Origin: Paenibacillus sp. URB8-2
Lineage (GTDB): Bacteria > Bacillota > Bacilli > Paenibacillales > Paenibacillaceae
DNA length: 64,000 nt
Assembly: GCF_013393385.1 (NCBI RefSeq)
Contig: NZ_AP023239.1
Coordinates: 1,736,001-1,800,000, forward strand
Direction: 5' to 3'
Below the pieces are notes generated by a model. The model did not search any database. It worked only from the letters and a program-made list of their open reading frames with translations, and had not been told where the DNA came from. Numbering within the stretch: position 1 is the stretch's first letter; each line of letters begins with the position of its first letter. The translations under genes were made by a program, and so were the position numbers. This document shows, one piece after another, positions 908 through 21,127 of this stretch.

Positions 908-1234
908 AAGGACGTGTCACTGCATGATCCCATCGGGACCGATAAAGAGGGCAACGAAATCACCCTGATCGATATCCTCGGTTCGGAAACGGACGATGTC
1001 ATTAAAGAGGTGGATCTCAAGATTGAGAAGAGCAAGATCTACCGCAATCTCGATATCCTGGATGATCGGGAAAAAGAGGTGGTGGTCGGCCGATTCGGCC
1101 TCGACACTGGTGGCGAGGAGCGGACACAGCGGGAGATCGCCAAGGAATTGGGCATCTCGCGCAGCTATGTATCTCGGATTGAGAAGCGGGCGCTGATGAA
1201 GCTGTATCATGAGTTTTATAAGGCGAAGCGATAA
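908..1234 (+). pseudogene. sigK: 3' half of sporulation sigma factor SigK
   Basis: The frame from codon 908 reads [10 protein letters not shown], then the region-3/4 core ([15 protein letters not shown]) and a complete region 4.2 helix-turn-helix ([23 protein letters not shown]), ending about where Bacillus SigK region 4.2 ends. In SigK this is roughly the last 110 of about 235 residues. The frame is closed by a stop at 893-895, and no N-terminal half (promoter -10 binding region 2) is upstream. GTG 914 could start a short peptide but has no clear ribosome binding site. Homology begins close to the place where the skin element splits sigK in Bacillus subtilis, so it could be a spoIIIC-like half gene. 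Because other sigK pieces occur at 13.4 and 21.0 kb, I favour a decayed fragment. Confidence 0.85.
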
Positions 1235-1241
1235 CTCATAC

Positions 1242-1280
1242 AAGAAGCAACTTGTCTAATGACAGGCTGCTTCTTTATTT
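1242..1280 (+). terminator. Rho-independent terminator after the sigK fragment
   Basis: A stem built from GAAGCAACTTGTC and GACAGGCTGCTTC around a TAAT loop is followed by TTTATTT. Near-identical hairpins recur at 4575 and, weaker, at 13492. Confidence 0.85.
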
Positions 1281-1329
1281 GATCATTGATTTCCTGGCGT
1301 TTTCCGGTTGTGTTTTTCATGAATTGTTA

Positions 1330-1989
1330 TTAATGACGCCGTACTTTCCGTGCCAGCCAGTTTCCGAAGGATTGAATGCCCTGAACAAAAATAATTAAAA
1401 CAATTACCGTAAAGATCATAATCACGGTGTAGAAGCGTTGATAGCCGTATGAGATCGCCAAGTCTCCAATGCCTCCTCCTCCGACCGTCCCGGCCATGGC
1501 CGTAGCGCCGATCAGCCCGATTGTAGCCGTCGTCAGCGACAAAATTAACGAACCAAACGCCTCCGGCAGCAGGAAATGCCATATAACCTGAAACGGTGTA
1601 GCGCCCATCGCTTCGGCCGCTTCCAATATTCCGGGATTGACTTCGAGCAGCGAATTCTCAACTAATCGTCCGATATAAGGAGCAATGAAAATGATCAATG
1701 GGACGATCGCTGCATTTGTTCCGATGGAAGTGTGTACCAAGAAGCGCGTAAACGGTATAATGGCGACCAGTAAAATAATAAACGGCAGAGAGCGGATGGT
1801 GTTAATCACCGGATTTAATAGGGAATAGACCGCTTTGTTATCCAGTACGCCGCCGGACCGGGTCACGACCAGTAATATCCCGAGCGGAATTCCGATCAGG
1901 GAACCGATCAGCAGGGAAGCGCCTACCATATAAATCGTTTCATATATCGCCTGTAAAAACTGGTCCAGTGTAATCGTTGTAGATATCAT
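1330..1989 (-). CDS. metI: Methionine ABC transporter permease MetI
   Basis: Inner-membrane permease of the D/L-methionine importer (methionine uptake transporter family), normally working with MetN (ATPase) and MetQ (binding lipoprotein). The 219-residue product has about five hydrophobic segments and the ABC permease EAA loop (LEAAEAMGATPFQVIWHFLLP, around residues 125-145), which docks to the ATPase, and a GGGGIGDLA stretch typical of MetI. I start at ATG 1989, which overlaps the metN stop (ATGA), rather than at an earlier ATG inside metN. The gene itself looks intact, but its partner metN is broken, so it is probably non-functional here unless another MetN supplies the ATPase. The 3' end faces the sigK terminator at 1280. 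Confidence 0.9.
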   Translation of the reverse strand: MISTTITLDQFLQAIYETIYMVGASLLIGSLIGIPLGILLVVTRSGGVLDNKAVYSLLNPVINTIRSLPFIILLVAIIPFTRFLVHTSIGTNAAIVPLIIFIAPYIGRLVENSLLEVNPGILEAAEAMGATPFQVIWHFLLPEAFGSLILSLTTATIGLIGATAMAGTVGGGGIGDLAISYGYQRFYTVIMIFTVIVLIIFVQGIQSFGNWLARKVRRH

Positions 1990-2898
1990 AACTCTTCCGA
2001 TGCCTCCTTCACTGTAACACCGCATTCTTCCAGATAAGAAATCGCCTTATCAATTGCTGACGATTCTCCATTTAACTGAATAATCATACTGCCGAGTGTC
2101 GTTCCCTGAATTTCCGACATATTGGCGGATAAAATATTCACATCCACCGGATATTGGCGAATCAAACCATTCAGAATGGGCTGTGAGGCGGCGTGTCCGA
2201 TAAACTCCAGCTTGAACAGCTGCCGGCCCTCTGCTTCCTGAAGCGTCTCTTTGACACTGTCCGGAACCCTGTTATGAAGGACTGTCCGCACAAAATTGCG
2301 TGTTGTCGGGTGTTGGGGATTTCCGAACACTTCCAGCACGGTCCCCTGCTCAATGATCTCGCCTTTCTCCATGACTGCTACACGATTGCAAACCTCCTGG
2401 ATGACGGCCATTTCGTGCGTAATAATTCGAGGCCAATGCCCGCGCAATGCCGACGCGCTGCTTCTGTCCACCCGACAATTCATTTGGATAGCTGCCGGCT
2501 TTATCGCTAAGGCCCACGAAATCAAGCAGTTCGGATACCCGCTGCTGAATTTCTTGCTTGGACTTTTTCAGTAATACTAGCTGTATTGCAACATTATCGA
2601 AGACGGTTTTGGACTCAAGCAAATTGAAAAGTTGAAAGATCATGCCGATTTGCTTCTTGACCGCCCGCAATTGATTGATGTTAAGCTCGTCCAGAGACTG
2701 GCCGTCAATAATCACCCGGCCTTTCGTAGGCTTTTCCAAATAATTGACCATGCGGATCAGGGTGCTTTTCCCTGCTCCGCTGTATCCGATTACGCCGAAG
2801 ATGTCGCTTTTCTCCACCTTTAAGCGGACCCCTTTTAGCGCATCAATGCTAATTCCTTTTCGCTGAAAGGTTTTATACATATCTCTCAACTCGATCAT
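1986..2898 (-). pseudogene. metN: Methionine ABC transporter ATPase MetN, internal deletion and frameshift
   Basis: The N-terminal part (from ATG 2898) is a normal MetN: Walker A GYSGAGKST, Q-loop and the signature LSGGQKQR followed by GIARALASN. Near 2427-2431 the frame breaks, and the sequence resumes in another frame directly at ITHEMAVIQEV (H-loop), continuing through the C-terminal ACT-like NIL domain that senses methionine, to the stop at 1986. About 38 residues normally between these points are missing, including the whole Walker B and D-loop (DEATSALDP). The loss is not a multiple of three. ATP hydrolysis cannot be supported, so this is a pseudogene. It shares a strand and overlap with metI and is divergent from metQ. 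Confidence 0.92.
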
Positions 2899-3314
2899 AG
2901 CTTGTTATTCCTCTCGTTTTCTGTCCTCGAAATGTGTCTTAGGTTCAAAGAAGTTTAACCAGCGCCGCTTCCGCGAGTAAAGAGAAATAGCGGGCCGCGG
3001 GAAATAAAGCCGCTTAATTCTCTGTCGTTTTAATTTCCTCATTGGATAATTCCGGCTCTTTGTACAGGGTGCGGCGTACTTCTTTTAAACAAACTTTTCC
3101 GATGTTAATGATGCTGTTGGAATGTTAACCTGATTTCCTTCTTATTGTCAACAGGCTTTTTGAAATGAAGTCAAAGGCTCATTATCAGCTGCAAAATGTA
3201 TTGACGTTGTCCTTTTATGTATGTTACTATCCGAATAATTAATCCAATTAAACATATTGGTATTATTTTTTTTCCAAATGGAAAGGGTCGTGATTTAAAA
3301 AGGGAGGCTGGCAC
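2899..3314. other. Intergenic region between broken metN and the uroD-like remnant
   Basis: About 400 bases, AT-rich toward 3180-3290, with no gene that I can support. I looked on both strands for an S-box (SAM) riboswitch, usual before methionine genes in this group, and did not find its conserved core. Promoters for metNI should lie here but none is clear. Confidence 0.4.
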
Positions 3315-3473
3315 AAGAAAGAGAGGTTTGAAGCCCTGCTGTCGGGGGAACTGGCTGATCGCCCTGCTGTTAGCGGGTGGCGGCATATTTTGGACAAGGA
3401 ACAGAATGCCGATGATATGGCCGAAACGACAGTAGCTTTTACGAAAGAATTTGATTGGGATTGGGTCAAGTGA
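3315..3473 (+). pseudogene. N-terminal fragment of a uroporphyrinogen decarboxylase-family protein
   Basis: A 52-codon stretch reads KKERFEALLSGELADRPAVSGW then HILDKEQ and FTKEFDWDWVK before a TGA. This is the characteristic opening of the URO-D-like family (HemE and corrinoid/methylcobamide methyltransferases): the KERF..ALL motif, a D/RPPV/RPAV turn and FDWDWVK. The family is about 340 residues, so only the first sixth is left. It stops about 30 bases before metQ and has no clear start codon. I infer that an ancestral uroD-like gene was cut by the event that placed metQ here. Confidence 0.7.
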
Positions 3474-3501
3474 TTCTATTTTTTTAAAAGGGGACAAAAC
3501 A

Positions 3502-4326
3502 ATGAGAAAATTATTAACGGTAGTATTGGTAGGATTAATTTTGGTGCTGAGCGCTTGCGGAAAGCAAAGTTCGTCCGGCGAAGATAAAAAAGAGATTACC
3601 GTCGGTTTTGGCGTAGGTACTTATGAAGAGCAATTCCGCCAGGGCATTCTGCCGATTCTGGAGGAAAAAGGCTACAAGGTGGACATCAAAACGTTCTCGC
3701 AGAACATGCAGGTTAATCCGGCTATGAAGGAAGGCTCTATTGACGCCAGCATTTTCCAAAGCACAGCTTATATGGAAGCTATTAATAAGGAACTAAGTGC
3801 GGAGATGACAAGACTCGCATTCTCACCCGGTGCGCCGCAAGGTCTGTACTCCGAAAAGCTCAAGTCGCTGGATGAAGTGAAAGACGGTTCGACGGTAGCG
3901 GTCCCACAGGACCCGGTTAACCAGGAACGCGCGATTCGGATTTTGGAAGAACTCGGTTGGGTAAAAGTAAAAGCCGATGCGGGTACAACGGATTTCAACC
4001 TGAACAGCGTTGAGCCAGGCAGTGTTAATCTTAAAATTGAGGTGCTGGATCCGGCTCAAATACTGGTTTCGTTAAAAGACGTAGATTATGGAGTGGTAAA
4101 CGGGAACTACATTGCCAACGCCAAAAGAAAAATTACGGAAGCGTTGAAGATTGAAAATACACCGGAACAGCATCGCATTATTGTTTCTATTAATAAAAAA
4201 GACGAAAACACCCAATGGGCCAAGGACTTGAAAGCAGCTTACGAATCCAAGGAATTTGAGGATTATATTAATTCCCAAGATAAATATGACGGCTTTATTC
4301 TGCCGGAGGCCTGGAAAAACAACTAA
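3502..4326 (+). CDS. metQ: Methionine-binding lipoprotein MetQ
   Basis: Extracytoplasmic substrate-binding lipoprotein (NlpA/MetQ family, 274 residues) of the methionine importer. It opens with a lipoprotein signal peptide (MRKLLTVVLVGLILVLSACG, lipobox LSAC, lipidated Cys about residue 19). The body carries family signatures such as FGVGTYEEQF, the mature-domain hinge around MKEGSIDASIFQ, and VPQDPVNQERA. ATG 3502 follows AAAAGGGGAC. Unusually it is on the strand opposite metN and metI instead of downstream of them, which suggests rearrangement of the cassette. With metN broken, the protein would bind methionine without local transport, unless it serves another MetNI pair. Confidence 0.9.
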   Translation: MRKLLTVVLVGLILVLSACGKQSSSGEDKKEITVGFGVGTYEEQFRQGILPILEEKGYKVDIKTFSQNMQVNPAMKEGSIDASIFQSTAYMEAINKELSAEMTRLAFSPGAPQGLYSEKLKSLDEVKDGSTVAVPQDPVNQERAIRILEELGWVKVKADAGTTDFNLNSVEPGSVNLKIEVLDPAQILVSLKDVDYGVVNGNYIANAKRKITEALKIENTPEQHRIIVSINKKDENTQWAKDLKAAYESKEFEDYINSQDKYDGFILPEAWKNN

Positions 4327-4338
4327 AGAGTGGTTGAA

Positions 4339-4545: not shown

Positions 4546-4574
4546 GCTTTGGGGCACACCATCGTAACTCATAC

Positions 4575-4612
4575 AAAGAAGCAGCTTGTCCAATGACAGG
4601 CTGCTTCTTTAA
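4575..4612 (+). terminator. Copy of the sigK terminator
   Basis: A perfect hairpin AAAGAAGCAGCTTGTC / GACAGGCTGCTTCTTT with a CAAT loop. Together with the preceding TAACTCATACAA it matches the sequence from the sigK stop codon through its terminator at 1232-1277 with only a few changes, although no sigK coding sequence precedes it. Confidence 0.85.
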
Positions 4613-4681
4613 TGGATTCCATAGGAAATACACCCGTTCCCCGGTCAAGTTCCGGGAAACGGCCGTTTTTAGCTGTCTACT

Positions 4682-5644
4682 TTACAGGAAATGATCATGC
4701 CCAATAACCTTCTCGTATACTTTTAAGTAACGTTCAGCCATCTTTTCTTTCGTAAATCGATCAGCGACATACTGACGAAGCTGTTCAGGATGGACAGATG
4801 CATCCCCCATAATCATCTTCGCCATATCCTCCGCGCTTTCACACAAGAATTGCGGAAACCCGGACAGAACTTCTGGAACAGCCCCTCTTGGGAATGCGGC
4901 TACAGGCGTTCCGCAGGCCATCGCTTCAATCATCACAAGTCCAAATTGCTCTTCGCAAGCAGTCGGAAATATGAGCCATTTGGCATGCCGCAGTAAATCT
5001 TGTTTTGCTTTTCCATGAACTTCACTGACATATTCGATGTTAGGACTGTTATTCATTCGTGGAAGGATCTGATTAAACAGATCTCCGTCCCAGGCGGGGC
5101 CTGCTATTATCGTTCTTATACCTGTCATTTCGGCTACATCAATCGCAGTATGCACGCCTTTTTCCCAATCAATCCGTCCTAGAAACAGCACATAATCTTC
5201 TTTATGCTTACTATATTTATACTCGTTTAGGTCGATTCCATTGTGTACATAATATCCTTTATGCCGGTTAGGAGACTGTTTAAGCTTCGTACGGCTCACA
5301 TATACTGGATGCTTTACCGGGACATGAAGCGACCATTCCGTGTGAATCGTTGAGACTATTGGAATGCTTAGGTCTTCCTGTCCAATCAGGAGATCATGCG
5401 TATGGTCGTGTATGATATCGGTATTGTCCGGTATCGTATCAAGAACGAAATCCTTGATGCTGTCTGTTTCATACCGGTGTCCATACGGAATAACGACAGC
5501 ACGGCTTCGGCTCCCTGCGAGAGCATACACATATACCTCATGTCCCATATCCACAAGCGCATCCGATAAATTGTAAACGACCCTTTCGAGACCTCCGCTG
5601 CCGGGAAGAGGAATGATGTTCGGAGCCACCTGAACAATGATCAC
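4682..5644 (-). CDS. Glycosyltransferase family 4
   Basis: A 320-residue retaining GT-B glycosyltransferase, cytoplasmic, probably adding a sugar from a nucleotide-sugar to a surface glycan. The N-terminal domain begins with the GT4 acceptor-site motif GSGGLERVVY (residues about 15-25). The C-terminal domain has VLFLGRIDWEKG and the donor-binding EX7E motif (EEQFGLVMIEAMACGTPV, about residues 232-250). The length is a little short for GT4 (350-400). I use GTG 5644, which has GAGGTGA upstream. It is the last gene of a four-gene minus-strand operon (GT2, GT4, PIG-L, GT4). Donor and acceptor cannot be told from sequence. Confidence 0.88.
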   Translation of the reverse strand: MIIVQVAPNIIPLPGSGGLERVVYNLSDALVDMGHEVYVYALAGSRSRAVVIPYGHRYETDSIKDFVLDTIPDNTDIIHDHTHDLLIGQEDLSIPIVSTIHTEWSLHVPVKHPVYVSRTKLKQSPNRHKGYYVHNGIDLNEYKYSKHKEDYVLFLGRIDWEKGVHTAIDVAEMTGIRTIIAGPAWDGDLFNQILPRMNNSPNIEYVSEVHGKAKQDLLRHAKWLIFPTACEEQFGLVMIEAMACGTPVAAFPRGAVPEVLSGFPQFLCESAEDMAKMIMGDASVHPEQLRQYVADRFTKEKMAERYLKVYEKVIGHDHFL

Positions 5645-5681
5645 CGTAAATCACCTCTGCTTTAAAATCGTATATGGAAGC

Positions 5682-6212
5682 TTAAGATTCCCACGGGTCA
5701 ACCCAAATCAACCCCTCATTCACGATAAATGGCATCAGTTGTTCGATTACAAACATTTGGCTTTTATAGTGCTGCAATAATTGGAGCTTCAATTGCAATA
5801 TATGAAATGGAAGCGGATCATCCTCTGTTTCGAATACATATAAATGATCCAATTTCATACTATGCAAAATACGGGATAACGACCGGTGCTGTCCATGGCC
5901 GTATTCTCCTTGCAGATTATGAGTGACAACTTTATGGAATTGTCCGGAATCCAGCAGGCCTCTTAAAGCGTCTTTTACTTGGTCTTCATCAAACTCTCCA
6001 TCGTATTCGTCCGGGAAATCCCATATTTCGAACTCGGCACCAACGAAATTCATTGCTTGTTGGAATTCCTGGGAACGGATCTCGTTGCTTTCGTTGGTTA
6101 AGCAAACTACTTTCCAGCCTGACTCCTGGAGTAGGGTTCCACCTCCAAATATGCTTTCATCGTCAGGATGAGCGACTACCATTAGCTTATCTGCTGCCGA
6201 ATCGGATGACAT
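5682..6212 (-). CDS. PIG-L / LmbE family deacetylase
   Basis: A zinc-dependent deacetylase of N-acetylglucosaminyl groups on glycans, glycolipids or thiol precursors (PIG-L, BshB, MshB family). The metal-binding motif AHPDDE appears near residue 15, and the second metal ligand region is GEYGHGQH near residue 106. At about 176 residues it is shorter than BshB (about 230), so the C-terminal part is reduced. I start at ATG 6212, four or five bases after GAGGTGG; an adjacent in-frame GTG at 6215 is possible. It is translationally coupled to the GT4 gene upstream. In this context it probably deacetylates a sugar of the surface glycan, rather than making bacillithiol. Confidence 0.85.
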   Translation of the reverse strand: MSSDSAADKLMVVAHPDDESIFGGGTLLQESGWKVVCLTNESNEIRSQEFQQAMNFVGAEFEIWDFPDEYDGEFDEDQVKDALRGLLDSGQFHKVVTHNLQGEYGHGQHRSLSRILHSMKLDHLYVFETEDDPLPFHILQLKLQLLQHYKSQMFVIEQLMPFIVNEGLIWVDPWES

Positions 6213-7531
6213 CACTCCACCTCATAGGGGGCATAATGGTCTTTTAAAATGTTTGCATATACGTTCACTAACATGTCTGTAGTACGGGTGAAGTTGAATT
6301 GCTCCTTCACCAGATTCCGGTTTACCCAGCCCGTTTCCATCTTCTCTTGAACCGGCATATCCAGCGCCCGCTTTATATCTGCTTTTAACTTCTCTACTGA
6401 CCAGGGTTCATCGGCATGATGGTCACCGAACCATGTCTCCCATGCGTACCGGTAATTTCCTGGATTAACGAGTCCAACAAAACCCTTCACACCAACAGCG
6501 ACCACAGGACGACAGCAGGCCAGAGCCTCAAGAGCGGCTCTCCCGGTGCCGATAAAGACATCGCAGATGGAATAATAGGAAGACATATTGAAAGTATTCC
6601 CCAGCAAATGTATGAATTTTCCTTTCGCTTCTTTGTGAATTACATCAACCAGCGATTTTATCCCCTCACTATGCCGCCCTTCGCCGGTCACGAGGATGTT
6701 TAGGTTAGGGTAGTTTTCGGCCTTTAACTGTCTGCATGCTTCTATGATGTCTCTGCAAATATCCGCTTTTTCCCAAGACAATCTGCCGGCGTACATAATA
6801 ATGGGCGCGCCCTTAGGAATTCCCAGTTCTTCGCGCAAGTCACTCTGTATAAGGGAGCGGGAATTGAACTGTACGGTATCAATTCCGTTAGGAATCAATT
6901 GGACAGGCATTCCTTTGACAGGCAGTTGTTTCACTATGGAAGGGCTCACGCAGACGACCGCCGCGCTGCTTCTGATCAGCTCGATCTCAGCGATTGTAAA
7001 AGGAAGCAACATGTGGAGCGTCCATAAACGGGGGATGCACAATTGATCCGCGGCTTTTGCAGCAAAAAAACCGGAAGGGATTTGATGAATATGAACGGCT
7101 GTAATTCCTTCCGTATTCATAATTTGTTTTAATTGGGAGATGATTTTCTGCTCATCGGCATCATTGATTATATATTCGTTCGTGACGAAGTTAATCTCAT
7201 ATACGGGACAGCCTAATGCGGCGAATGCATCACACATTTCTCCGCGTTTCCCGGCTACAACGACGTGAATACCGTTTCTAAGCAATTCCCGTACGCATGT
7301 CAGAACGTGCGTTTCGGTTCCGCCGATATTAAATTGGTCCAGCACCATTAAAATGCGCAGGTCACTATCTGAATATCGCGGCTGCATGCTGTAATTCGGT
7401 TCTTCTTTATTTAACCAGACCACTTGCTTGGGCGGTTGGGCGTTCACGACGTATTGTACAATCGGCTTTTGGGTGTATATGCGTTTCTTAACCGGGCGTT
7501 TTTTGCTGCGAATCTCTGCCTTTTTTCTCAA
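6212..7531 (-). CDS. Glycosyltransferase family 4 with basic N-terminal extension
   Basis: A 439-residue GT-B enzyme. Residues 1-55 are a Lys/Arg-rich extension not typical of the family, perhaps for binding the membrane or a partner. The N-terminal Rossmann domain begins at LRILMVLDQFNIGGTETH (GGTE acceptor loop). The C-terminal domain has IIMYAGRLSWEKAD and a degenerate EX7E region (GTGRAALEALACCRPVVAV), in which the first Glu is replaced by Gly/Arg while the second is kept. TTG 7531 follows AAGGAG. The gene lies 14 bases after the GT2 gene and overlaps the PIG-L gene. It is likely part of the same glycan pathway. Confidence 0.85.
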   Translation of the reverse strand: MRKKAEIRSKKRPVKKRIYTQKPIVQYVVNAQPPKQVVWLNKEEPNYSMQPRYSDSDLRILMVLDQFNIGGTETHVLTCVRELLRNGIHVVVAGKRGEMCDAFAALGCPVYEINFVTNEYIINDADEQKIISQLKQIMNTEGITAVHIHQIPSGFFAAKAADQLCIPRLWTLHMLLPFTIAEIELIRSSAAVVCVSPSIVKQLPVKGMPVQLIPNGIDTVQFNSRSLIQSDLREELGIPKGAPIIMYAGRLSWEKADICRDIIEACRQLKAENYPNLNILVTGEGRHSEGIKSLVDVIHKEAKGKFIHLLGNTFNMSSYYSICDVFIGTGRAALEALACCRPVVAVGVKGFVGLVNPGNYRYAWETWFGDHHADEPWSVEKLKADIKRALDMPVQEKMETGWVNRNLVKEQFNFTRTTDMLVNVYANILKDHYAPYEVE

Positions 7532-7545
7532 TCTGATTCAACTCC

Positions 7546-8229
7546 TTATTCCGAATAAAATTCACGGGAACGCTGGGACGGATGGGAGCGGTAATAATAC
7601 AGGGTCTCCCGCAGGTTTTCGATCCGGATGCCATTAGAAACGCACTTGGCAATAAACTCATAATCCTCGGCTCCATTCATGTTCCGGGAAAGTCCTCCCA
7701 AGCGATCGAATACACTGCCTCGCAACAAAATGGTCGGATGTGACACGCAATGCTCGCCTATCGCATATCTTCTCGGAATATCCTCACCATAACTTAGCCA
7801 ATTCGACGGGGTTTGTTTTTGAATGTCGCTTTCTTCAAAAGCCATATAGTTCGTGCCGACCAATCCGGTCTCCGGGTGGTTCATCAGAAACTGGACCTGC
7901 TTACGAATCCTTTCGGGATGGGAGTAGTCATCCGCATCGTGAATGGCGATATATTCTCCGCTTGCCATAAACAGCCCCGTTGTCAGAGAACCGGAGAATC
8001 CTACATTTCGAGGCAGCTGAAGCAGTGTGAAGCGGGGGAAACGCCGGCGAGACTGCCACAACAAGGTACGATCGGCAGATCCATCCGTCGATGCATCATC
8101 CACAATAATGATTTCTATGTTTGGGTAGGTTTGCTCGTATAAATGATCCAGACAGTCCTCAATGTAAGATTCTGCGTTGAAGCACGGGATCACGATGCTT
8201 ACAAGCTGGTCAATTCGTGCAAGCGACAC
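7546..8229 (-). CDS. Glycosyltransferase family 2
   Basis: A 227-residue inverting GT-A transferase using a nucleotide-sugar. It has the opening VSIVIPCFNAESYI, the nucleotide-binding IIVDDASTDGS, the DXD metal site (IHDADDYS) near residue 98 and the catalytic-base region GAEDYEF near residue 188. There is no membrane segment, so the enzyme is cytosolic. GTG 8229 follows GGAGGGG. It is the first gene of the minus-strand glycan operon and is divergent from the plus-strand genes starting at 8408, so both promoters must lie in 8230-8407. Confidence 0.9.
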   Translation of the reverse strand: MSLARIDQLVSIVIPCFNAESYIEDCLDHLYEQTYPNIEIIIVDDASTDGSADRTLLWQSRRRFPRFTLLQLPRNVGFSGSLTTGLFMASGEYIAIHDADDYSHPERIRKQVQFLMNHPETGLVGTNYMAFEESDIQKQTPSNWLSYGEDIPRRYAIGEHCVSHPTILLRGSVFDRLGGLSRNMNGAEDYEFIAKCVSNGIRIENLRETLYYYRSHPSQRSREFYSE

Positions 8230-8407
8230 AGGTCAACCCCTCCATTCCAATAATCATGTCTTTTCACCATATGATCTGAAGAAAACAATGGAAAGGGATA
8301 AGCGTATATTTTCTAAAAATTGTATGCGGAAATACGTATCTACCCAATCAAAACTCGGGATTATCAATACAATAACAGCGGCACAACATTAAGGAAGGTG
8401 ATTTAAA
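8230..8407. promoter_or_regulatory. Divergent promoter region of the surface-glycan cluster
   Basis: This 178-base AT-rich gap separates the minus-strand glycosyltransferase operon from the plus-strand genes. Both transcripts must start here. I cannot assign boxes with confidence; a ribosome binding site AAGGAAGGTGA precedes the GTG at 8408. Confidence 0.45.
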
Positions 8408-9871: not shown

Positions 9872-9885
9872 GAGGTTGAGGACCG

Positions 9886-10674: not shown

Positions 10675-10843
10675 TTCTGGAGGAAACAGGGATGAATCGT
10701 TAATAAAATATGATTATATAAAAGGCTTGAAAATATGGTAATTCACTAGAGTTTCAGCCCTTACATTTTCTTGGTCCGAGCATTTAATAGTATCAGGATG
10801 ATTAAGACATCCTAATATATTATTAAAGGAGTGCTTCTAAAAG

Positions 10844-11488: not shown

Positions 11489-11499
11489 TTTAGGTAGCC

Positions 11500-11531
11500 G
11501 GCCTCTTCCGACCCGGAAGAGGCCGTTTCTT
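11500..11531 (+). terminator. Terminator after copy 1
   Basis: GGCCTCTTCC / GGAAGAGGCC hairpin with a GACCC loop, followed by GTTTCTTCTT. Confidence 0.75.
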
Positions 11532-11667
11532 CTTGTAAGGACTATTAATGATTTCATATATGTTAATTAACTAGAATATCAGCCGTTGCATTTCCTTGCT
11601 CAGAGCATTTGATAGTAGCAGGATGAATTAACACATCCAATATATGATAAAAGGAGTGCTTATAATA

Positions 11668-12309: not shown

Positions 12310-12318
12310 TTTAGGTAG

Positions 12319-12355
12319 CCGGCCACTTCCGACCCGAAAGAGGCTGTTTCTTCTT
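12319..12355 (+). terminator. Degenerate terminator after copy 2
   Basis: Counterpart of the 11500 terminator, but the stem has picked up mismatches (GGCCACTTCC against GAAAGAGGCT), so read-through into the CotS-like gene is likely. Confidence 0.5.
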
Positions 12356-12413
12356 GTAAGTAAGGCCCTCTGGAGTAACGGACTTCCATTTTAGCATGAC
12401 GAGGTGATTCTTT

Positions 12414-13397: not shown

Positions 13398-13417
13398 TCT
13401 GAGCAGCAGCTTCCTTC

Positions 13418-13470
13418 GTATCACGAATGGAGAAGCGGGCGCTGATGAAGCTGTATCATGAGTTCTAAAG
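13418..13470 (+). pseudogene. sigK: Scar of the sigK 3' end
   Basis: Bases 13430-13464 match 1181-1215 of the sigK fragment exactly over 35 bases (codons for [12 protein letters not shown]). The flanks are similar but degenerate, and the stop region is changed. There is no reading frame of use. It separates the CotS-like gene from the sugar-transport operon. Confidence 0.85.
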
Positions 13471-13491
13471 GCGAAGCGGAGGGAGAGGAAA

Positions 13492-13523: not shown

Positions 13524-13639
13524 CAGGTATAAGGAATGAAAGGAAACATATCCAGGCTAATGTTAAATTTAATGACATTCTAACAAAAAAACATTGCAAG
13601 TACTTGATTGTGAATGTATTATGAATATATAAAAGTTAT

Positions 13640-13653
13640 CGAAAACGTTTTAG
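13640..13653. promoter_or_regulatory. LacI-family operator 1 (autoregulatory)
   Basis: CGAAAACGTTTTAG, a near-perfect palindrome centred on CG of the LacI/GalR type, just before the regulator's start. Related sites lie at 14717 and 14878. Confidence 0.75.
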
Positions 13654-13657
13654 ATAT

Positions 13658-14695
13658 GTGGGGTGCGTTATTATAGTTAACATAAGAGATATCGCCAAGG
13701 CGGCTGGAGTTTCAGTATCGACCGTCTCCAAAGCATTGAACGGATATTCGGATGTAAAGAGCAAGACAAGGGAAATGATCCTCGATGTTGCCAAGGAAAT
13801 GGATTATTTGCCTAATGTAATGGCCAGGGGGCTTATTACGAAGAAATCGAATACCATTGGAATCTTTTTCGGAGACAGGCAAAACTCGGGGTTCGACAAT
13901 CCGTTCTTCAGTGAGCTGATCCGTTCGATTAAGGATGTGGCTGGTGCGGAGGGTTACGATATTCTCATCTTCGCCAATCAGAAGCGAACTACATCCAGTT
14001 ATAAGACCATATGCTACGAGAAAGGTGTCGATGGTGTCATCCTGATTCTCACTGGTGACCAGCGTACGGATGAAAACATCCGGGAGCTGCATGAGAGTCT
14101 GCCGACCGTTTATATAGACAGCGTATCCTATCAATTCAACAATGTTAATTTCGTTGAAACGGAAAATGTGAATGCCTCATTCCAGGCGGTGGAACATCTG
14201 ATTGAACTGGGTCATACGCGAATTTTGAAGATGGCTGGAGACCAGGTCGCCAAGGCGTCGTACGACCGGATTGAAGGTTACAAGCAGGCGCTGAACAAGC
14301 ATGGGCTTGAAGTCAATAATGATTTGATCCTATATGGGGAGTTCTCCAGGGAAAAAGCCTATCAGTTAACGAAGCGTTTCTTCTCAAAGCCTAGCGGAGT
14401 CACAGCCGTATTCTCATCCAGCGATATGATGGCTTTCGGAATCATTGATGCTTTGAAGGATTTGGGGTTCAGGGTTCCTGAAGATATTTCTGTCATAGGC
14501 TTTGACGATATAGATGAATCCAAAGACTATCAGCCTCCATTGACAACCGTTCACCAACAGCGTTTTACAATGGGGGAAACTGCCGCAAAAATGCTTCTTC
14601 AGCTGATTGATAGCCAAGACGGAATTACCCGGCATGCTACCATTCCAGCCAGACTGGTGATCAGAGAAAGCAGCGGCACGAAACGAGAGGGCTAA
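13658..14695 (+). CDS. LacI-family transcriptional regulator
   Basis: A 345-residue DNA-binding repressor that senses a sugar through a periplasmic-binding-protein-like domain. The helix-turn-helix (IRDIAKAAGVSVSTVSKALNG) and hinge helix (NVMARGLITKKSN) are at residues about 8-60. The effector domain follows with typical features (AVFSSSDMMAFGI, VIGFDDID). GTG 13658 is the only ordinary start codon in frame before the DNA-binding domain, but it has no clear ribosome binding site; a non-standard start a few codons later, after GGGGTG, is possible. Palindromes CTAAAACGTTTTAG or close variants before this gene and before the binding-protein gene suggest that it controls both. Confidence 0.92.
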   Translation: MGCVIIVNIRDIAKAAGVSVSTVSKALNGYSDVKSKTREMILDVAKEMDYLPNVMARGLITKKSNTIGIFFGDRQNSGFDNPFFSELIRSIKDVAGAEGYDILIFANQKRTTSSYKTICYEKGVDGVILILTGDQRTDENIRELHESLPTVYIDSVSYQFNNVNFVETENVNASFQAVEHLIELGHTRILKMAGDQVAKASYDRIEGYKQALNKHGLEVNNDLILYGEFSREKAYQLTKRFFSKPSGVTAVFSSSDMMAFGIIDALKDLGFRVPEDISVIGFDDIDESKDYQPPLTTVHQQRFTMGETAAKMLLQLIDSQDGITRHATIPARLVIRESSGTKREG

Positions 14696-14716
14696 TGCCT
14701 TCCTTTCAAATTTTAT

Positions 14717-14730
14717 CTAAAACGTTTTAG
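14717..14730. promoter_or_regulatory. LacI-family operator 2
   Basis: CTAAAACGTTTTAG, a perfect 14-base palindrome between the regulator gene and the transport operon. Confidence 0.8.
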
Positions 14731-14877
14731 GAAATGGTTGGACCGAATAAGGAGCTTTCTCGCCGAGTTCTCCGCTTTTTATTCGTTTAAATACAAGAGA
14801 CCAGATGGAGCAGCCAACTAATTTGAGAATCAAAGGGAGTGATGCGGTAAAGAAACCCGATAGCTTTGCCTTTTTTC

Positions 14878-14891
14878 GGAAAACGTTTTAG
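14878..14891. promoter_or_regulatory. LacI-family operator 3
   Basis: GGAAAACGTTTTAG, about 38 bases before the binding-protein start and about 160 bases from operator 2, a spacing that would allow repressor looping. Confidence 0.75.
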
Positions 14892-14928
14892 AAAAATACA
14901 CCGGCAAATATGAGGAGGAGAGAATACC

Positions 14929-16302
14929 ATGCAAAAAATGAAAGTATTGGTGCTGGTTTTCGTAATGGCAGTCATGACGATCTTGGCGGGATGTGGAGGC
15001 AATAGCTCCGGTTCCGGCGCTTCCCAGAATACGCAGGGGGGAAATAGCGCAGCGGCATCTTCCGCTGAACCGACTTCCACTGAACCGACTGAATTAACCG
15101 TCATTAACCAGGACCGCTGGGCTCCTTATGTGGAAAAGGCGGTGAAAATCTGGAACGAACAACATCCTGATAAGCAAGTGAAACTCAATCAGCTTGTCCT
15201 CGGCTACCCGCAATTGCGTCAAAAGATTACAACCGCAGCTGCAGCCGGACAAGCTCCCGACTTCTCCCTGATCGACTCGGTATGGGTGGCGGAGTTTGCG
15301 GACGCCGGGTACCTTAAACCGCTCAATTCGGTAGATCCCGAATGGGTTGAGAATGATTTTAAGAAAGACTTCTATCCGGTATTCGTCAACGGTGATTCCT
15401 ATGAAGGAAAGCCTTATGCAATCCGTTCGCAAACGGATATGGCTTTAATCTGGTTCCGCAAGGATTGGTTCAGCCAGGAGGGCATTCAGCCGCCGAAGTC
15501 TTTTGAAGAATTGATGTCAGCATCCAAGCATTTTTCCCAGAAGGAAGTTCAGGCCAAATACGGGAACTCTCAAGGCATCGCGTTTCCAGGCGGTCTGAAA
15601 GCCGGAGAAACGACGACAAGTCTGTTGATGCCCTTCTTCTGGTCCAGCGGCGCGGATGTGTTCAAGGATGGGAAGGTCGTATTGAACAGCCCGGAGTCGA
15701 AGGCAGCGGTTCAATTCCTGGCTGATCTTGTGAGTGAAAAGGCATCGACCAAGGAAGTGATCGCCTATGAATGGGATCGGGCCACGAAATTGCTGGCAAC
15801 AGGCAAAGTAGCTTTGTCCGTAGGAGGCAGCTATGAATATGCGATGATCAAGAACACGACCGGGTGGAGCGATGCCGAAATGAAAGAAAAGCTTGGTTTC
15901 GTGCCTATTCCGGCCGGGGGCAGCGGGAAAGTCGCCACATCTGCCGGCGGGATGGACTATGTCATTTATGAACAGGCCAAGCAGCCGGAACTCGCTATGG
16001 AAATTTTGAAAATTGTAACCGGCCCTGAACTGATGAAGGAGTTCGTAGTGGACACGGCACAGAATTCTCCGCGTATTTCGGTAACCGAAGGTCTGGACAA
16101 AGAAAAGGACTGGTTCCTCGCTGAAACGGGCAACTTCCTGTATGACGCCAATGTCCGTCCGGTCATTCCGGAATACGCAAAGGTATCGGAACAAATCCAG
16201 AAGATGATCGAGAGCACGGTATCCGGCAAAACGCCTGTTGATCAGGCGGTAACGGAAGCGGCAAAGGCGATCAGCGATGTTACAGGGCTTCCTCAGCAAT
16301 AA
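14929..16302 (+). CDS. Sugar ABC transporter substrate-binding lipoprotein (family 1)
   Basis: A 457-residue extracytoplasmic binding lipoprotein of the carbohydrate uptake-1 family. The signal peptide ends in the lipobox LAGC (Cys about residue 22), followed by a Gly/Ser/Ala-rich linker to about residue 55. The MalE-like body includes FADAGYLKPLN, YAIRSQTDMALIWFRKDW and FFWSSGADVFKDGK. ATG 14929 follows GAGGAGAGAA. It is the first gene of a five-gene operon, followed by two permeases, a nitrilase-family enzyme and a glycosidase. No ATPase gene is present; such systems usually share a general MsmX/MalK-type ATPase encoded elsewhere. The sugar is unknown, probably a small oligosaccharide. Confidence 0.9.
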   Translation: MQKMKVLVLVFVMAVMTILAGCGGNSSGSGASQNTQGGNSAAASSAEPTSTEPTELTVINQDRWAPYVEKAVKIWNEQHPDKQVKLNQLVLGYPQLRQKITTAAAAGQAPDFSLIDSVWVAEFADAGYLKPLNSVDPEWVENDFKKDFYPVFVNGDSYEGKPYAIRSQTDMALIWFRKDWFSQEGIQPPKSFEELMSASKHFSQKEVQAKYGNSQGIAFPGGLKAGETTTSLLMPFFWSSGADVFKDGKVVLNSPESKAAVQFLADLVSEKASTKEVIAYEWDRATKLLATGKVALSVGGSYEYAMIKNTTGWSDAEMKEKLGFVPIPAGGSGKVATSAGGMDYVIYEQAKQPELAMEILKIVTGPELMKEFVVDTAQNSPRISVTEGLDKEKDWFLAETGNFLYDANVRPVIPEYAKVSEQIQKMIESTVSGKTPVDQAVTEAAKAISDVTGLPQQ

Positions 16303-16357
16303 CTTACAGTAAGGGGATGCTTCCATCCCCTATCCTTTTATAAAGGTGGTGGCATAT

Positions 16358-17293
16358 GTGGGACAATCGCTGATCACAGCGATCCGGGATAACACCGGTT
16401 CATCCAGATCCAGATTCAGCAAGAAATGGGCCAAAACTATCCCCTTCTTGCTGATGCTTCCCGCGCTTGCGGTGATGGGACTTTTCGCTCTGTTTCCGGT
16501 CATCAACGCTTTTCGGCTCAGTTTATACGACAAGCAGCTTCTGAATCCGGGGGAAACGTTTGTCGGGCTGGATCACTATTCGCAGCTGTTCTCAAACGGA
16601 GAATTTATCAATGCCTTGAAAGTCTCCGTCATCTATGTAGCCGGTTCGGTCGCGCTGCAATTTCTCGTGGGGCTTGCGCTGGCTGCCCTGCTCTCTGCCC
16701 AAGGCGTCAAGGGTAAGAGGTTTTTCCGGACGGCGTTTATTATTCCTTACACGCTTTCCGAATTGGTTGTTTCGCTAATCTGGCTGCAGATGCTGGATAC
16801 CGAGTTCGGGATTATCAATTATTTCGCCACTTTGCTTGGCGCAGATCCGCAGAATTGGCTCTTTGACTTCGCGCTTCCCGCCGTTATTGTAGCGAATGTC
16901 TGGTGGGGAAGCACCTTCTCTCTGCTGATGCTGGAATCGGCCATGCAGGGTATTCCCAAAGAACTTTATGAAGCGGCGGAAGTGGACGGCTGCACATCCT
17001 GGGGCAAATTTGTTCACATCACGCTTCCTTCCATACGCTATGTGTCGCTTTTGAACATGATCATGATTACCTTGTACACTATCAACTCCTTCGGCATTAT
17101 CTTTGTCCTTACGGCGGGTGGACCGCTCGGAAGTACGGATGTGATCGGAATGTTTATGTGGCGCAGTGCATTCCAATTCATGGACCTCGGGCTCGGCGCA
17201 ACCATTTCTACCTTGATCTTTGTTGTCAATATTCTGATCACTTTGGTGTATATCCGGTTGTTCGGCTTGAACACGCTGAAGGAAGGAGCGTAA
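16358..17293 (+). CDS. Sugar ABC transporter permease (MalF type)
   Basis: A 311-residue permease of the carbohydrate uptake-1 family with six predicted membrane segments, the first at about residues 35-55. The EAA loop reads ELYEAAEVDGCTSWGKFVHITLP (in two pieces: ELYEAAEVDGCTSWG, then FVHITLP), the docking site for the ATPase. I choose GTG 16358, eight bases after AAAGGTGG; an in-frame GTG at 16346 overlaps that site. It is followed four bases later by the second permease gene. Confidence 0.88.
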   Translation: MGQSLITAIRDNTGSSRSRFSKKWAKTIPFLLMLPALAVMGLFALFPVINAFRLSLYDKQLLNPGETFVGLDHYSQLFSNGEFINALKVSVIYVAGSVALQFLVGLALAALLSAQGVKGKRFFRTAFIIPYTLSELVVSLIWLQMLDTEFGIINYFATLLGADPQNWLFDFALPAVIVANVWWGSTFSLLMLESAMQGIPKELYEAAEVDGCTSWGKFVHITLPSIRYVSLLNMIMITLYTINSFGIIFVLTAGGPLGSTDVIGMFMWRSAFQFMDLGLGATISTLIFVVNILITLVYIRLFGLNTLKEGA

Positions 17294-17297
17294 ACAG

Positions 17298-18131
17298 ATG
17301 ACTAACCGAAAGAAATCACTCGGAATCCATATCTTGATGAGCGCCGCGGCTGTCGCCATTGCCTTTCCTGTTCTTTGGATGTTCATCATGTCCGTCAAGC
17401 CGGCCGATGAGCTGTACCGGTTTCCTCCCACGATATGGCCGGACAAATGGGAATTCGGGAACTATACCAAAGCGTTTTTTGAAGCGGGTATCGATAATGG
17501 ATTGATCAACAGCCTGATTCTGGCCGCAGGTACACTGGCCCTAAGCGTCACATTGAGCTTTCCGGCTGCTTACGCACTCGCGAAATACGAATTTAAAGGG
17601 AAGACCATTCTTTTGCTGGCCATCCTGGCGACCCAGCTGATCCCCGGTATGGCGGCGATTGTCCCTTTATTCGATATTTTGCAGCGAATGCATCTGGTGA
17701 ACACTTACAGCGGTTTGATTCTTATTTATACCGCAAGAACGCTGCCGCTGAACATTTGGATTTTGAAAGGCTTTTTCCAGTCCATTCCGAACGAATTAAT
17801 CGAATCGTCGATGGTGGACGGCAGCTCGAAAATCGCTTCCCTTTATCGCGTCGCACTGCCGCTGGCTCTGCCTGGCATCGGGGCGGCCGCAATGTTTACG
17901 TTTATGCAGACCTGGATCGATTTTATCCTGCCGTTAACGATGCTGTTTAATGAGGACAAGTTCCCTTTCAGCGTCATGTTGTATAAATTTGTCGGCGATC
18001 CCATTATGGGGACCAATTACGGCGTCCTGTTCGCCGCTGCCGCTCTCGGCACCATACCGACCTTACTGATCTTTGCTCTGCTCCAGCGCTTCTTCGTTCA
18101 GGGGCTTACAGCCGGAGGCGTTAAAGGCTAA
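17298..18131 (+). CDS. Sugar ABC transporter permease (MalG type)
   Basis: The second membrane subunit of the transporter (277 residues, six predicted membrane segments). The EAA loop is ELIESSMVDGSSKIASLYRV followed by LPLALPG, with SSMVDG at the usual EAA--G position. The sequence SVKPADELYRFPP near residue 35 is typical for the MalG branch. ATG 17298 follows AAGGAGCG at the end of the previous gene. Confidence 0.9.
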   Translation: MTNRKKSLGIHILMSAAAVAIAFPVLWMFIMSVKPADELYRFPPTIWPDKWEFGNYTKAFFEAGIDNGLINSLILAAGTLALSVTLSFPAAYALAKYEFKGKTILLLAILATQLIPGMAAIVPLFDILQRMHLVNTYSGLILIYTARTLPLNIWILKGFFQSIPNELIESSMVDGSSKIASLYRVALPLALPGIGAAAMFTFMQTWIDFILPLTMLFNEDKFPFSVMLYKFVGDPIMGTNYGVLFAAAALGTIPTLLIFALLQRFFVQGLTAGGVKG

Positions 18132-18166
18132 TCATGTGAAATTGTGAAAATGACGGAGGAATGAAT

Positions 18167-18982
18167 ATGACGGAGCTGACAATCGCGATTGCACAGATGG
18201 ACAGCAAAATTATGGACAAGGAATATAATTTGCAAAAAGCGGAAGCCTTATTGGATCAGACGGGAGGCAAAGCGGACGTCATTTGTTACCCGGAGCTTTT
18301 TACGACCGGCTACAATTTCGATTTGATCGGAGATGCCTTTTATGAGTTGGCGGAAACGATCCCAGGTCCGACCGTCGAACGGTTGGCGAACAAAGCCCGC
18401 ACCTATGGAACAGCCATTATCGGAACGATCGTGGAAAAGGACGGGAACCAGGAAGGCGTGCTTTATGATACAACTTTTGTCATCAATGAAAAGGGCGAAT
18501 ATATCGGGAAGTATCGAAAAGCGCATCTGTATCCGACAGAACATCAATATTTCCGCAGCGGTTTGGATTTTCCCATATTTGAGATTTGCGGGGTAAAAAC
18601 GGGCATTGCTATCTGCTATGATCATGCATTCGGAGAAATGTTCCGGGTGTTGGCCTTGAAAGGAGCCCAGGTTATCTTTATCCCTTCGGTCATCCCGAAA
18701 GATTTCGAATACCTGCTGGATTTGCGGACGAGAGCCCGTGCCCAGGACAATCAAATCTTCACGGTAGCCGTTAACCGGGTAGGTTCGGAAGCAGGTATTG
18801 TCTATTGCGGAAACAGCAAGATCGTCAATCCCAGGGGCGACGTGATTTGTGAAGCAGGAGATGAGGAAGAAGTAGTGACAGCCACGATCGATCTTTGCGA
18901 AATCGCAAGAGAACGGAAGCAGGAGATGAGCTTGCGCAGCAGAAGACCGGAGCTGTACGGAATATTGGCACAGCAAGCATAA
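18167..18982 (+). CDS. Carbon-nitrogen hydrolase (nitrilase superfamily)
   Basis: A 271-residue amidase-type enzyme that hydrolyses or transfers acyl groups at C-N bonds, probably on a small amide. The Glu-Lys-Cys triad is visible: Glu in YPELFTTGY (near residue 42), Lys in KYRKAHLYP (near residue 114), Cys in GIAICYDHAFGE (near residue 150). The architecture is that of single-domain omega-amidases and N-carbamoyl or aliphatic amidases. ATG 18167 has GGAGGA at ideal spacing, better than ATG 18161. Its place inside a sugar uptake operon is unusual and suggests that the substrate is a sugar amide, an N-acylated sugar or an amino-acid conjugate (inference). Confidence 0.88.
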   Translation: MTELTIAIAQMDSKIMDKEYNLQKAEALLDQTGGKADVICYPELFTTGYNFDLIGDAFYELAETIPGPTVERLANKARTYGTAIIGTIVEKDGNQEGVLYDTTFVINEKGEYIGKYRKAHLYPTEHQYFRSGLDFPIFEICGVKTGIAICYDHAFGEMFRVLALKGAQVIFIPSVIPKDFEYLLDLRTRARAQDNQIFTVAVNRVGSEAGIVYCGNSKIVNPRGDVICEAGDEEEVVTATIDLCEIARERKQEMSLRSRRPELYGILAQQA

Positions 18983-19010
18983 TTGAATGCGGTAAAATGG
19001 AGGAATTCCT

Positions 19011-20984
19011 TTGTCTATTTCATCCCTTGAGTTCATGCGTTTACCTGACACACAAAACCGCAAGCCTCTGGATGTGGGATGCGGGCAGCTGTCCGCGAGC
19101 ATCGGAGAGGACGGTTGCATCCGTTCGGTGAATCACGTCCATCCGCGACATGGATTTATCACACTGGAACCGGCAGAACCATTTCCAAACGATAAATGGT
19201 ATGACAGTGAATATGTTCGTCTATATCGCAGACGTTTAATAGATCAACCGCGCATTTCAGAAGGCACAACCGGATTCGGAATTCTGCCGAAGAGTTCAGA
19301 TTGGAAGCAAGAGTTTTTTTTGGCCATGAATCATTTCCCGCTGATCCGGTTCCAAAGGAAAACCATTGAAATCAATGCTGTATATATCCCTTTTCATCAT
19401 AATGGGATGAGCGGCATGATTGAGCAGCTTACAATCACCAATTGCGGCGGCAAACCGGAGTCCGTTCCTTTGGCGATTGGCGGCACATTCAGCCTTCACC
19501 GGTGCAGCTACGGACAGTTGACGGAAGGCGGACCGATCCCGATTCCGCCAACGGATCTTGCTTTTGTGGCCGCTAACAACAGCCTGACAATTACCAATCT
19601 GAATCTGCCAGCTGAGGCGAGCCTGTATTTCTTTAACGGGGCAGACCCGCTGGAATTGCAGCCGATGGAGAAATTAGCGAACCGCCCGGTAACTTATATA
19701 CACGAGACAGAATTGATTTTAAACAACGGGGAAAGCCGCGAGCTTACGATGCTTTGCCTGATTTCAGAGGAAGCAGGAGAACCGGCAGTTTTCAGCTTTG
19801 ACGAAATTCAGGCTTGGAAAAATAGGGCATGGGAAGAGACGCCGAGGCTGACAACGGATGGCCGTTTGGGTGCGGAGAAGCTCATCATTCACAGGAATAT
19901 CGGCTACATCCTGTCCTGCTGCTCCGTCCCGGTCGATGATGAGTCTGTGTGCATCATTACCGATCATCAGCTTCTGCCTTTGTCGTGGAATCGGGATTCC
20001 TATTATATGATGCGGCTGCTGCTTGATTCGGAGCAGCACGCACGCTATCTGTATGAGGGTTCCTACGTTCCCGTATTCAAAAATCAGGTACAGCGAACCG
20101 TCAAGGGCCATCTATTGTGGATGTTCGAAAAAGCCGTTCGTCCGAACCGTTATTGGGGCCGCGCCTACCTGACTAACGGATTTTGCAAGGATGATGTATT
20201 TCAACTGGATCAGCAGTGCTATCCCCTGCTTCAGCTGTGCGATTATTACGACAGGTTCCGGGATCGCCAAACGATTGTAAGACTAATGCCCAAGATTCAC
20301 GAAATACTGGATATGATCATGGAATACAAGGATACGGAACGATGGCTATTTCAAACCGGGGAAACGCCGGCGGATGATGAAGTTACATACCCGTATCATT
20401 TTTCAAGCCAGGTGTTGGTATGGCATACGCTGAAGTCGCTGGCAAAGCTGAATGAAACCTTTTCTTTTACAAACCTCGAGCTGTTGGAAATTGCCCAGTT
20501 GGTTAAACGCGATACCCTGGATTGTTTTGTTGCGCCGCATGGTGGCAGGGAACTGTTTGCTTATCTTTCCGATTTGAAGGGAAGCTTTCAGCTTTACCAT
20601 GATGCGAACGATCTTCCGACGGTTTATGCTCCTATCTGGGGATTCTGTCATTCGAATGACCCGAGATGGATGAATACGATGGAGTTTGCTTTTTCGAAGG
20701 AGAATAAGAGAGGCTTTTACGACGGGGAATATGGCGGACTCGGTTCCGTCCACACCCCTCACCCTTGGCCATTGGGAGACGGGCAGGAGCTTCTGTACAG
20801 CTTGCTGATCGGAGACGTCAGGCGTAAGCAACAGGTTCAGCGCAAATTGGCGAGGATCGTCCAGTGGGACGGACTTTTTCCTGAAGCAGTAAACGAGCAT
20901 ACGGGGGATGTTGAATCAAGGCATTGGTTTTCATGGCCGGGTGCATTTATATCTTCCGTATTTGTTCATTCCCTTTGCGAGTGA
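19011..20984 (+). CDS. Six-hairpin glycosidase-like protein (GH125-like)
   Basis: A 657-residue protein that I place in the (alpha/alpha)6-barrel glycosidases. Residues 1-270 are a beta-sandwich-like domain. The barrel starts near residue 285 with RNIGYILSCC and contains the motif LSWNRDSYYMMRLLL near residue 330, resembling the WLRDS signature of GH125 metal-independent alpha-mannosidases, and ends with HWFSWPGAFIS. It has no signal peptide, so it is cytoplasmic and would act on sugars brought in by the adjacent ABC transporter. The start is TTG 19011, six bases after GGAGGA. The family assignment is tentative; the exact sugar is unknown. The gene ends against sigK-derived sequence. Confidence 0.72.
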   Translation: MSISSLEFMRLPDTQNRKPLDVGCGQLSASIGEDGCIRSVNHVHPRHGFITLEPAEPFPNDKWYDSEYVRLYRRRLIDQPRISEGTTGFGILPKSSDWKQEFFLAMNHFPLIRFQRKTIEINAVYIPFHHNGMSGMIEQLTITNCGGKPESVPLAIGGTFSLHRCSYGQLTEGGPIPIPPTDLAFVAANNSLTITNLNLPAEASLYFFNGADPLELQPMEKLANRPVTYIHETELILNNGESRELTMLCLISEEAGEPAVFSFDEIQAWKNRAWEETPRLTTDGRLGAEKLIIHRNIGYILSCCSVPVDDESVCIITDHQLLPLSWNRDSYYMMRLLLDSEQHARYLYEGSYVPVFKNQVQRTVKGHLLWMFEKAVRPNRYWGRAYLTNGFCKDDVFQLDQQCYPLLQLCDYYDRFRDRQTIVRLMPKIHEILDMIMEYKDTERWLFQTGETPADDEVTYPYHFSSQVLVWHTLKSLAKLNETFSFTNLELLEIAQLVKRDTLDCFVAPHGGRELFAYLSDLKGSFQLYHDANDLPTVYAPIWGFCHSNDPRWMNTMEFAFSKENKRGFYDGEYGGLGSVHTPHPWPLGDGQELLYSLLIGDVRRKQQVQRKLARIVQWDGLFPEAVNEHTGDVESRHWFSWPGAFISSVFVHSLCE

Positions 20985-20986
20985 AG

Positions 20987-21127
20987 ATCCGCTGACAAGG
21001 GGACCCGAGTGGCTGCGTTTGCTAGCCCGCTGCATATAGAGCGAAATTCTCATACGCCTGCGCCCGCTCATAAAAGCGCGCAAGGAGTGGATCTCAAGAT
21101 TGAGAAGCAGCAAGATCTACCGCAATT
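20987..21127 (+). pseudogene. sigK: Decayed internal piece of sigK
   Basis: Read with small indels, this stretch gives KGTRVAAFA, then ARCI, SEILIRLRPL and IK, matching the SigK region-2 end (KGTKLATYAARCIENEIL...LRALKK). It then jumps to a 40-base stretch (21087-21126) matching 1010-1048 of the 3' fragment (codons for [13 protein letters not shown]) with one inserted base. About 32 codons between the two parts are lost. It contains stops and frameshifts. This is the only trace in the window of the N-terminal side of sigK. Confidence 0.8.

Follow-up and report, generated by a model that had tools for sequence, protein, structure and literature searches.

Displaced pieces of the spore gene sigK in Paenibacillus sp. 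URB8-2 as probable borders of an island grown by repeated insertion

Why should four pieces of sigK, a gene required to complete sporulation, lie scattered among unrelated genes in a Paenibacillus chromosome? The window analyzed here is a 64,000-nucleotide stretch of Paenibacillus sp. URB8-2 (C1:1736001-1800000, where C1 is the single contig of the 5.58-Mb genome). A sequence-only reading of it had taken the sigK 3′ end to be a repeated entry point for foreign DNA, with each event leaving a partial copy. Repeat and genome searches recover all four pieces, each no more than a few bases from where that reading placed it. The window probably belongs to a chromosomal island built up as mobile DNA entered sigK time after time by site-specific insertion. 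Sharp boundaries in related genomes bear out the idea of a repeated entry point that leaves partial copies in one orientation. These boundaries lie inside the gene, one at Lys codon 67 and another close to codon 113, which rules out the 3′ end as the landing site.

The intact sigK frame of this genome (C1:1634133-1634834, assuming that the GTG start is correct) lies about 100 kb left of the window; sigK nucleotides are counted here from C1:1634001. A search of the whole genome with window positions 908-1310 gave eight matches including the query itself, all on the + strand and within 130 kb. Beyond the query, they are the intact gene (1634508, E = 2.5e-122), a 3′ half (1714609, 6.5e-120), a match at 1649764 (2.1e-31), three matches in the window (13418-13478, 1.6e-17; 4565-4617, 1.2e-12; 21087-21126, 5e-11), and a match at 1627020 (1.1e-6) that is mostly terminator. 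This last match is found 7 kb ahead of the intact gene, so not all pieces are downstream of it. BLAST with the intact gene added a piece at 1651115-1651272. A TnpB-like gene, recognized by eye (C1:1633000-1633815), ends about 0.3 kb before intact sigK.

Related genomes, denoted by G numbers (among them P. auburnensis, G011; P. albidus, G003; P. wynnii, G122; P. rhizophilus, G013; P. ihuae, G009; and P. monticola, G018), show where such pieces begin. Most of their displaced sigK copies start at a single base, nucleotide 322, behind a conserved arm, TGACATCGYATCGTGTCCAYAACCTC. The boundary is preceded by TGACATCGYATCGTGTC and followed by CAYAACCTCAARAAATTC, and intact genes at this point read like CATATCGTTAAAAAATTC. 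The same start base is present in G001, G003, G007, G009, G010, G011, G012, G013, G018, G022, G092, G096, G121, and G122, and a few single displaced copies begin elsewhere or carry another arm. Terminators of one family follow many of the sigK 3′ copies. A mirror arm stands after displaced sigK 5′ pieces, upstream of intact sigK in G011, G107, and G122 and on another contig in G003. Aligned with each other, the arm and the mirror arm form inverted arms around a shared AA (position 1634331-1634332), the two bases that open Lys codon 67, and such paired arms around a central AA look like the attachment site attP of a serine integrase. An interrupted sigK is the textbook case of developmental DNA excision, known from skin elements, and two draft assemblies have this form at codon 67. 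No intact sigK was found in G106 or G080, where a further copy could lie in an assembly gap; the sole sigK found is split at the codon-67 site by an element that encodes a large serine recombinase (sigK parts 2-65 and 46-226 in G106; 2-63, 2-45, and 58-227 in G080). The same fragments beside intact sigK in every relative, with no cassettes between them, is not the pattern seen: the 20-kb stretches fetched around sigK, reaching about 13 kb downstream, hold one sigK and no pieces in G017, G028, and G034 and one piece in G033.

A 28-base motif of the arm, allowing up to two mismatches, occurs in 49 of 100 genomes of the genus, and the reversed motif occurs in none of the 100. A slightly looser exact pattern searched in genome_contigs (84,980 species) returned 22 stretches, all titled Paenibacillus, with 23 matches; sigK follows in frame after 21 and out of frame after two. 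The exact motif had no match in viral_contigs. Among the arm sites scored in the regions fetched around sigK from 16 genomes, 53 share the strand of sigK and one is on the opposite strand; the scoring matrix was built from 38 of these same sites.

A large serine recombinase of the type found in G011 is encoded in eight of 100 genus genomes (E ≤ 1e-90). It lies 0.25 to 0.8 kb ahead of the match to intact sigK in four of them (G003, G011, G107, and G122) and directly before a sigK 3′ part in three (G012, G106, and G080); the remaining genome is G066. In an even sample across the order, the family was found in 16 of 198 genomes and eight of 43 genera (E ≤ 1e-110). The sequences show one large-serine-recombinase family at a site in Lys codon 67 of sigK, where the ends of its elements are the inverted arms around AA. 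Insertions leave either the arm with a displaced sigK 3′ part on the right or a displaced 5′ part with the mirror arm on the left, and in most genomes one sigK is kept intact.

A second recombinase family uses a site near codon 113, and a 63-kb segment of the URB8-2 genome is bounded there by the halves of a displaced copy, sigK nucleotides 322-479 on the left (the piece added by BLAST) and 459-835 on the right, from 1714560. No integrase had been visible in the sequence-only reading. The segment supplies one, 22 kb left of the window: a large serine recombinase of 501 amino acids (C1:1713037-1714542) with Resolvase, Recombinase, and zinc-ribbon domains (Pfam), which ends 3 bp ahead of the reading frame holding the sigK 3′ half and is 29% identical to the G011-type enzyme. 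In G035 no intact sigK was found, and the gene is split at nucleotides 480/469 by about 48 kb with a recombinase 89% identical to that of URB8-2. Both segments start with DarT/DarG-like genes and three tyrosine recombinases (in G035 by homology). The 63-kb segment is defense-rich: besides DarTG, it carries a DUF499/DUF1156-methylase/PLD-helicase cluster and a HerA-like gene. The one arm kept by the URB8-2 genome, at 1651097, stands directly before the 5′ piece of this segment, and the piece itself is cut at the codon-67 site, which indicates that the segment occupies a copy of sigK that was displaced earlier. Like a skin element, it bears its own large serine recombinase, and its sigK halves share a short core; it does not interrupt the sole sigK, and because it sits in a displaced copy its excision would not be needed for the intact gene. 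Its location near codon 113 of the 233-amino-acid SigK is that of the B. subtilis skin element.

The three tyrosine recombinases are consecutive (C1:1653619-1657178), and a similar set lies upstream of the recombinase in G011, G003, G107, and G122. We take them to resemble the “recombinase in trio” set; a literature search on tyrosine-recombinase trios gave nothing useful. Tyrosine recombinases were considered as the main cause and rejected, as those among the matches listed lie upstream in the four relatives or, in URB8-2, inside the 63-kb segment and not at borders.

Signs of horizontal entry come from G107 and G122, which have a recombinase element in common at 95 to 98% identity over about 13 kb. 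Their intact sigK 5′ ends agree with each other at 98.7%, and their displaced 5′ pieces at 88.7%. The displaced pieces match the intact sigK of G121 at 91.6 and 88.0%, and the intact 5′ ends of their own genomes at only 75 to 76%. From these identities, it was probably the element that brought the intact 5′ end, the displaced piece being that of the host; the element has moved recently. The high identity runs on for 56 to 86 bp past the core before falling to about 80%, which suggests that the element carried sigK sequence beyond the core and that recombination later swapped the 3′ part. A circle carrying the sigK 3′ or 5′ half alone was also considered; a fuller spare copy is the likelier reading of this switch. 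The displaced 5′ piece of G011 is closer to the intact sigK of P. ihuae (98.4%) than to its own (87.1%), and those of G012 and G003 are closest to their own intact genes (92.4 and 86.8%) and do not discriminate. In URB8-2 itself, sigK matches those of G013 and G033 at 92 to 94% in the 5′ region, 87 to 89% in the 3′ coding part, and 37 to 43% after the stop codon; this fits replacement of the sigK 3′ part and is weaker evidence than that from G107 and G122.

These features can be joined in a model of array growth in which a spare copy is inserted and the recombinase end is lost afterwards. Some elements would carry a spare sigK comprising at least the promoter, the 5′ end, and bases past the crossover, with which the spore gene would work without excision. 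Homologous recombination between repeated sigK parts would then delete the recombinase end, leaving integrase-free units and re-creating the landing site for the next element. Large serine integrases usually pair attB with attP, and attL with attR when a directionality factor is present. Two published accounts give similar pairing rules (PMC6957869, PMC5025042). Integrase rules alone leave attR-like sites beside an intact attB unexplained, which is why the model includes the deletion step. In its widest form, which we regard as evenly poised between right and wrong, sigK would be in wide use in Paenibacillus as the place where accessory and phage-defense cassettes are loaded. The spare sigK of an element would overwrite the host gene and recombination would then remove the integrase, so that sporulation is kept, the cargo becomes fixed in place, and a fresh landing site is made.

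Several observations, along with those attR-like sites, weigh against repeated site-specific insertion at sigK. No recombinase of the codon-67 type was found in the URB8-2 genome at E ≤ 1e-90, and the search with the arm matrix found no arm at any window piece. The identity switch in G107 and G122 does not fall at the core. The recombinase and arm of G066 stand beside non-sigK sequence, G011 and G022 each have one mirror arm without adjoining sigK, and a paired-arm, attP-like palindrome lies away from sigK in G080 (contig C36, around 4712; L121). In a tree of 66 sigK 3′ parts, made by a short search without bootstrap, the copies cluster by genome (30 changes, with a minimum possible of 21 and a shuffled mean of 53.2; none of 200 shuffles was as low), which implies that many units have close relatives as their source or were homogenized by recombination.

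A serious rival to recombinase-driven growth is that the arrays spread and grow mainly via homologous recombination of incoming chromosomal DNA at sigK, with the 3′ copies as anchors and the recombinase as only an ancient starter. The clustering by lineage, the position of the identity switch past the core in G107 and G122, and the presence of serine recombinases in only three of 51 array units all speak for it. Against these stand the four genomes in which the recombinase neighbors intact sigK and a mirror arm follows a sigK 5′ piece (in G003 on another contig) and the recent move of the G107/G122 element, and we judge this rival less likely than not. Duplication and deletion of one ancestral sigK within each genome, for example, by slippage or insertion sequence activity and without site-specific recombination, is much less credible still. 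It would account for copies that cluster by genome or related genome above chance, but not for the same start base in many genomes, the conserved arm, the mirror arm, and the recombinases at junctions, and the copies have tip branches with a median length of 0.06 changes per site and are followed by different DNA.

Repeated insertion at sigK is the preferred reading for the window itself, whose pieces and intervening genes are listed below.

Features of the window associated with sigK pieces (positions are those of the window)
Feature	Position	Strand	Basis or remark
sigK 3′ remnant, 5′ side lost, then stop codon	906..1233	+	sigK nucleotides 506-833, 90%
Post-stop sequence and terminator	1234..1283	+	Like terminators after sigK 3′ copies of relatives
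Cargo 1, methionine ATP-binding cassette (ABC) transporter	1330..4326	mixed strands	Open reading frame (ORF) list and protein scans
Second copy of stop codon, post-stop sequence, and terminator	4563..4617	+	E = 1.2e-12 in whole genome
Glycan/CotS-kinase cluster	4682..13397	.	Protein scans and homologs in G033 and G013
sigK coding end, last 62 nucleotides, decayed, then weak terminator	13418..13478	+	87-92%
Cargo 2: LacI-type regulator, sugar-transport genes (label from the sequence-only reading), nitrilase-like gene, 657-amino-acid ORF	13658..20984	+	
Decayed internal sigK piece	20995..21126	+	sigK nucleotides 422-512 beside 605-648

The pieces are most likely old, eroded borders of accretion at sigK; with no arm in the window, the border role of each is drawn from relatives. 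At the protein level, the first remnant matches residues 115-227 with one stop inside. A repeat search within the window pairs it or its terminator with the others (1169-1218/13418-13467, 92%; 1242-1283/4576-4617, 90%; 1005-1030/21082-21107, 92%), and BLAST with the intact gene resolves the last piece into two adjacent internal sigK stretches. The piece at 4563 has no sigK coding sequence besides the stop codon and, taken alone, is weak evidence; the caution that the similarity might cover only a common terminator family applies to it in part, because terminators of that family follow many sigK 3′ copies, and not to the other three, which hold sigK coding sequence. The weakest rival, that the pieces comprise one pseudogene and chance likenesses to a terminator family, with ordinary backbone between them, could draw on the one terminator family behind many sigK copies and on the glycan/CotS genes beyond the sigK pieces of G033 and G013, yet it is the least probable of all, being contradicted for the three coding pieces by genome-wide E values of 5e-11 or lower on one strand and by the related genes between sigK pieces in G013, and may hold for 4563-4612 taken alone.

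The unrelated cassettes seen between the pieces in the sequence-only reading stand for the sugar cassette: in P. rhizophilus (G013), homologs of the cargo 2 regulator (66%) and of its nitrilase-like gene (71%; recognized by eye) lie between sigK pieces. They are doubtful for the glycan/CotS cluster. In G033 its homologs are found past the sigK pieces, and in G013 so is a homolog of its first gene, at the end of the fetched stretch, so the cluster may be older local DNA and not a late cassette. Neighboring similar genes in the cluster (10722-12156; ORFs of 214 and 221 amino acids) are 76 to 79% identical in DNA. In cargo 1, the metI-like gene and the start of a metN-like gene, whose frame is apparently broken, are on the − strand, and the metQ-like gene is on the + strand. 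The metN-like sequence (1986-2898) runs over two overlapping frames (2350-2898 and 1986-2525) and looks frameshifted; only the first of these ORFs was scanned. Just past the last sigK piece, at 21309-21471, a 79-nucleotide sequence occurs in two direct copies that are 85% alike.

Arrays in one orientation lie behind intact sigK in many Paenibacillus genomes, and 51 units were delimited across 16 of them. Each unit opens with some 510 bp of displaced sigK, usually accompanied by a terminator. Serine-recombinase matches are confined to unit 4 of G001, unit 7 of G012, and unit 31 of G007. A zeta-like gene is found in seven units, ending 39 to 46 bp before the arm in six and 133 bp before it in the seventh, and it is the single gene of some of the smallest units. 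Such a zeta-toxin-like gene is the last before the arm in several cassettes, and the skin-type element of G035 has one 63 bp ahead of the sigK 3′ half; loci noted for these genes are C1:1658025-1658603, L046:3727-4347, and L052:15688-16272. The cargo was sampled from the 35 units of up to 16.5 kb, which hold 153 proteins with 127 representatives, 121 of them within one fetched stretch; two of these were dropped because their reading contained X, leaving 119 proteins scanned, and the 16 longer units lie outside the scan. Defense matches among the 119 comprise at least Wadjet types II and III, PD-Lambda-4, PDC-S50, type IV restriction, and Lamassu-like genes, and other cargo looks metabolic or regulatory. 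When 20 cargo proteins were scanned singly against defense models, 10 had no match at the cutoffs used.

The arrays record repeated insertion, with the split, spare-copy, and integrase-free stages found in different genomes. Accretion at sigK would explain how an essential spore gene can serve as a target for elements that need not be excised, and the arm beside sigK offers an easy search handle for defense systems (Wadjet II/III, PD-Lambda-4, and type IV restriction in the units; DarTG in the 63-kb segment). No description of sigK arrays in Paenibacillus was found in the literature searched, which comprised titles, the starts of abstracts, and few subscription papers.

Three known systems are the closest comparisons. 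According to one account, the skin elements of B. subtilis and Clostridioides difficile use different sigK regions (PMC6957869), and an Alicyclobacillus prophage (MMB025) is described in another as sitting in sigK (PMC13141910). The Paenibacillus elements resemble skin in having a large serine recombinase element inside sigK, with the sole sigK found split in G035, G106, and G080, and differ in that most insertions leave an intact sigK plus a displaced part and are stacked in arrays. The staphylococcal cassette chromosome (SCC) and the enterococcal cassette chromosome insert at rlmH by large serine recombinases and have inverted repeats in their attachment sites (PMC6222049). The sigK arrays share with them the large serine recombinase, a housekeeping gene that stays whole at one end, cargo that varies, and inverted repeats in the attachment sites. 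Their target, however, is the gene of a sporulation sigma factor and not rlmH, a single recombinase is seen in place of the ccrA/ccrB pair, and about 510 bp of displaced sigK starts each unit. Like integrons, they are one-directional arrays of mostly integrase-free units on a fixed platform, some of the smallest units holding a single zeta-like gene; unlike integrons, they have a junction recombinase of the serine type, and the repeat between units is displaced host-gene sequence plus the arm.

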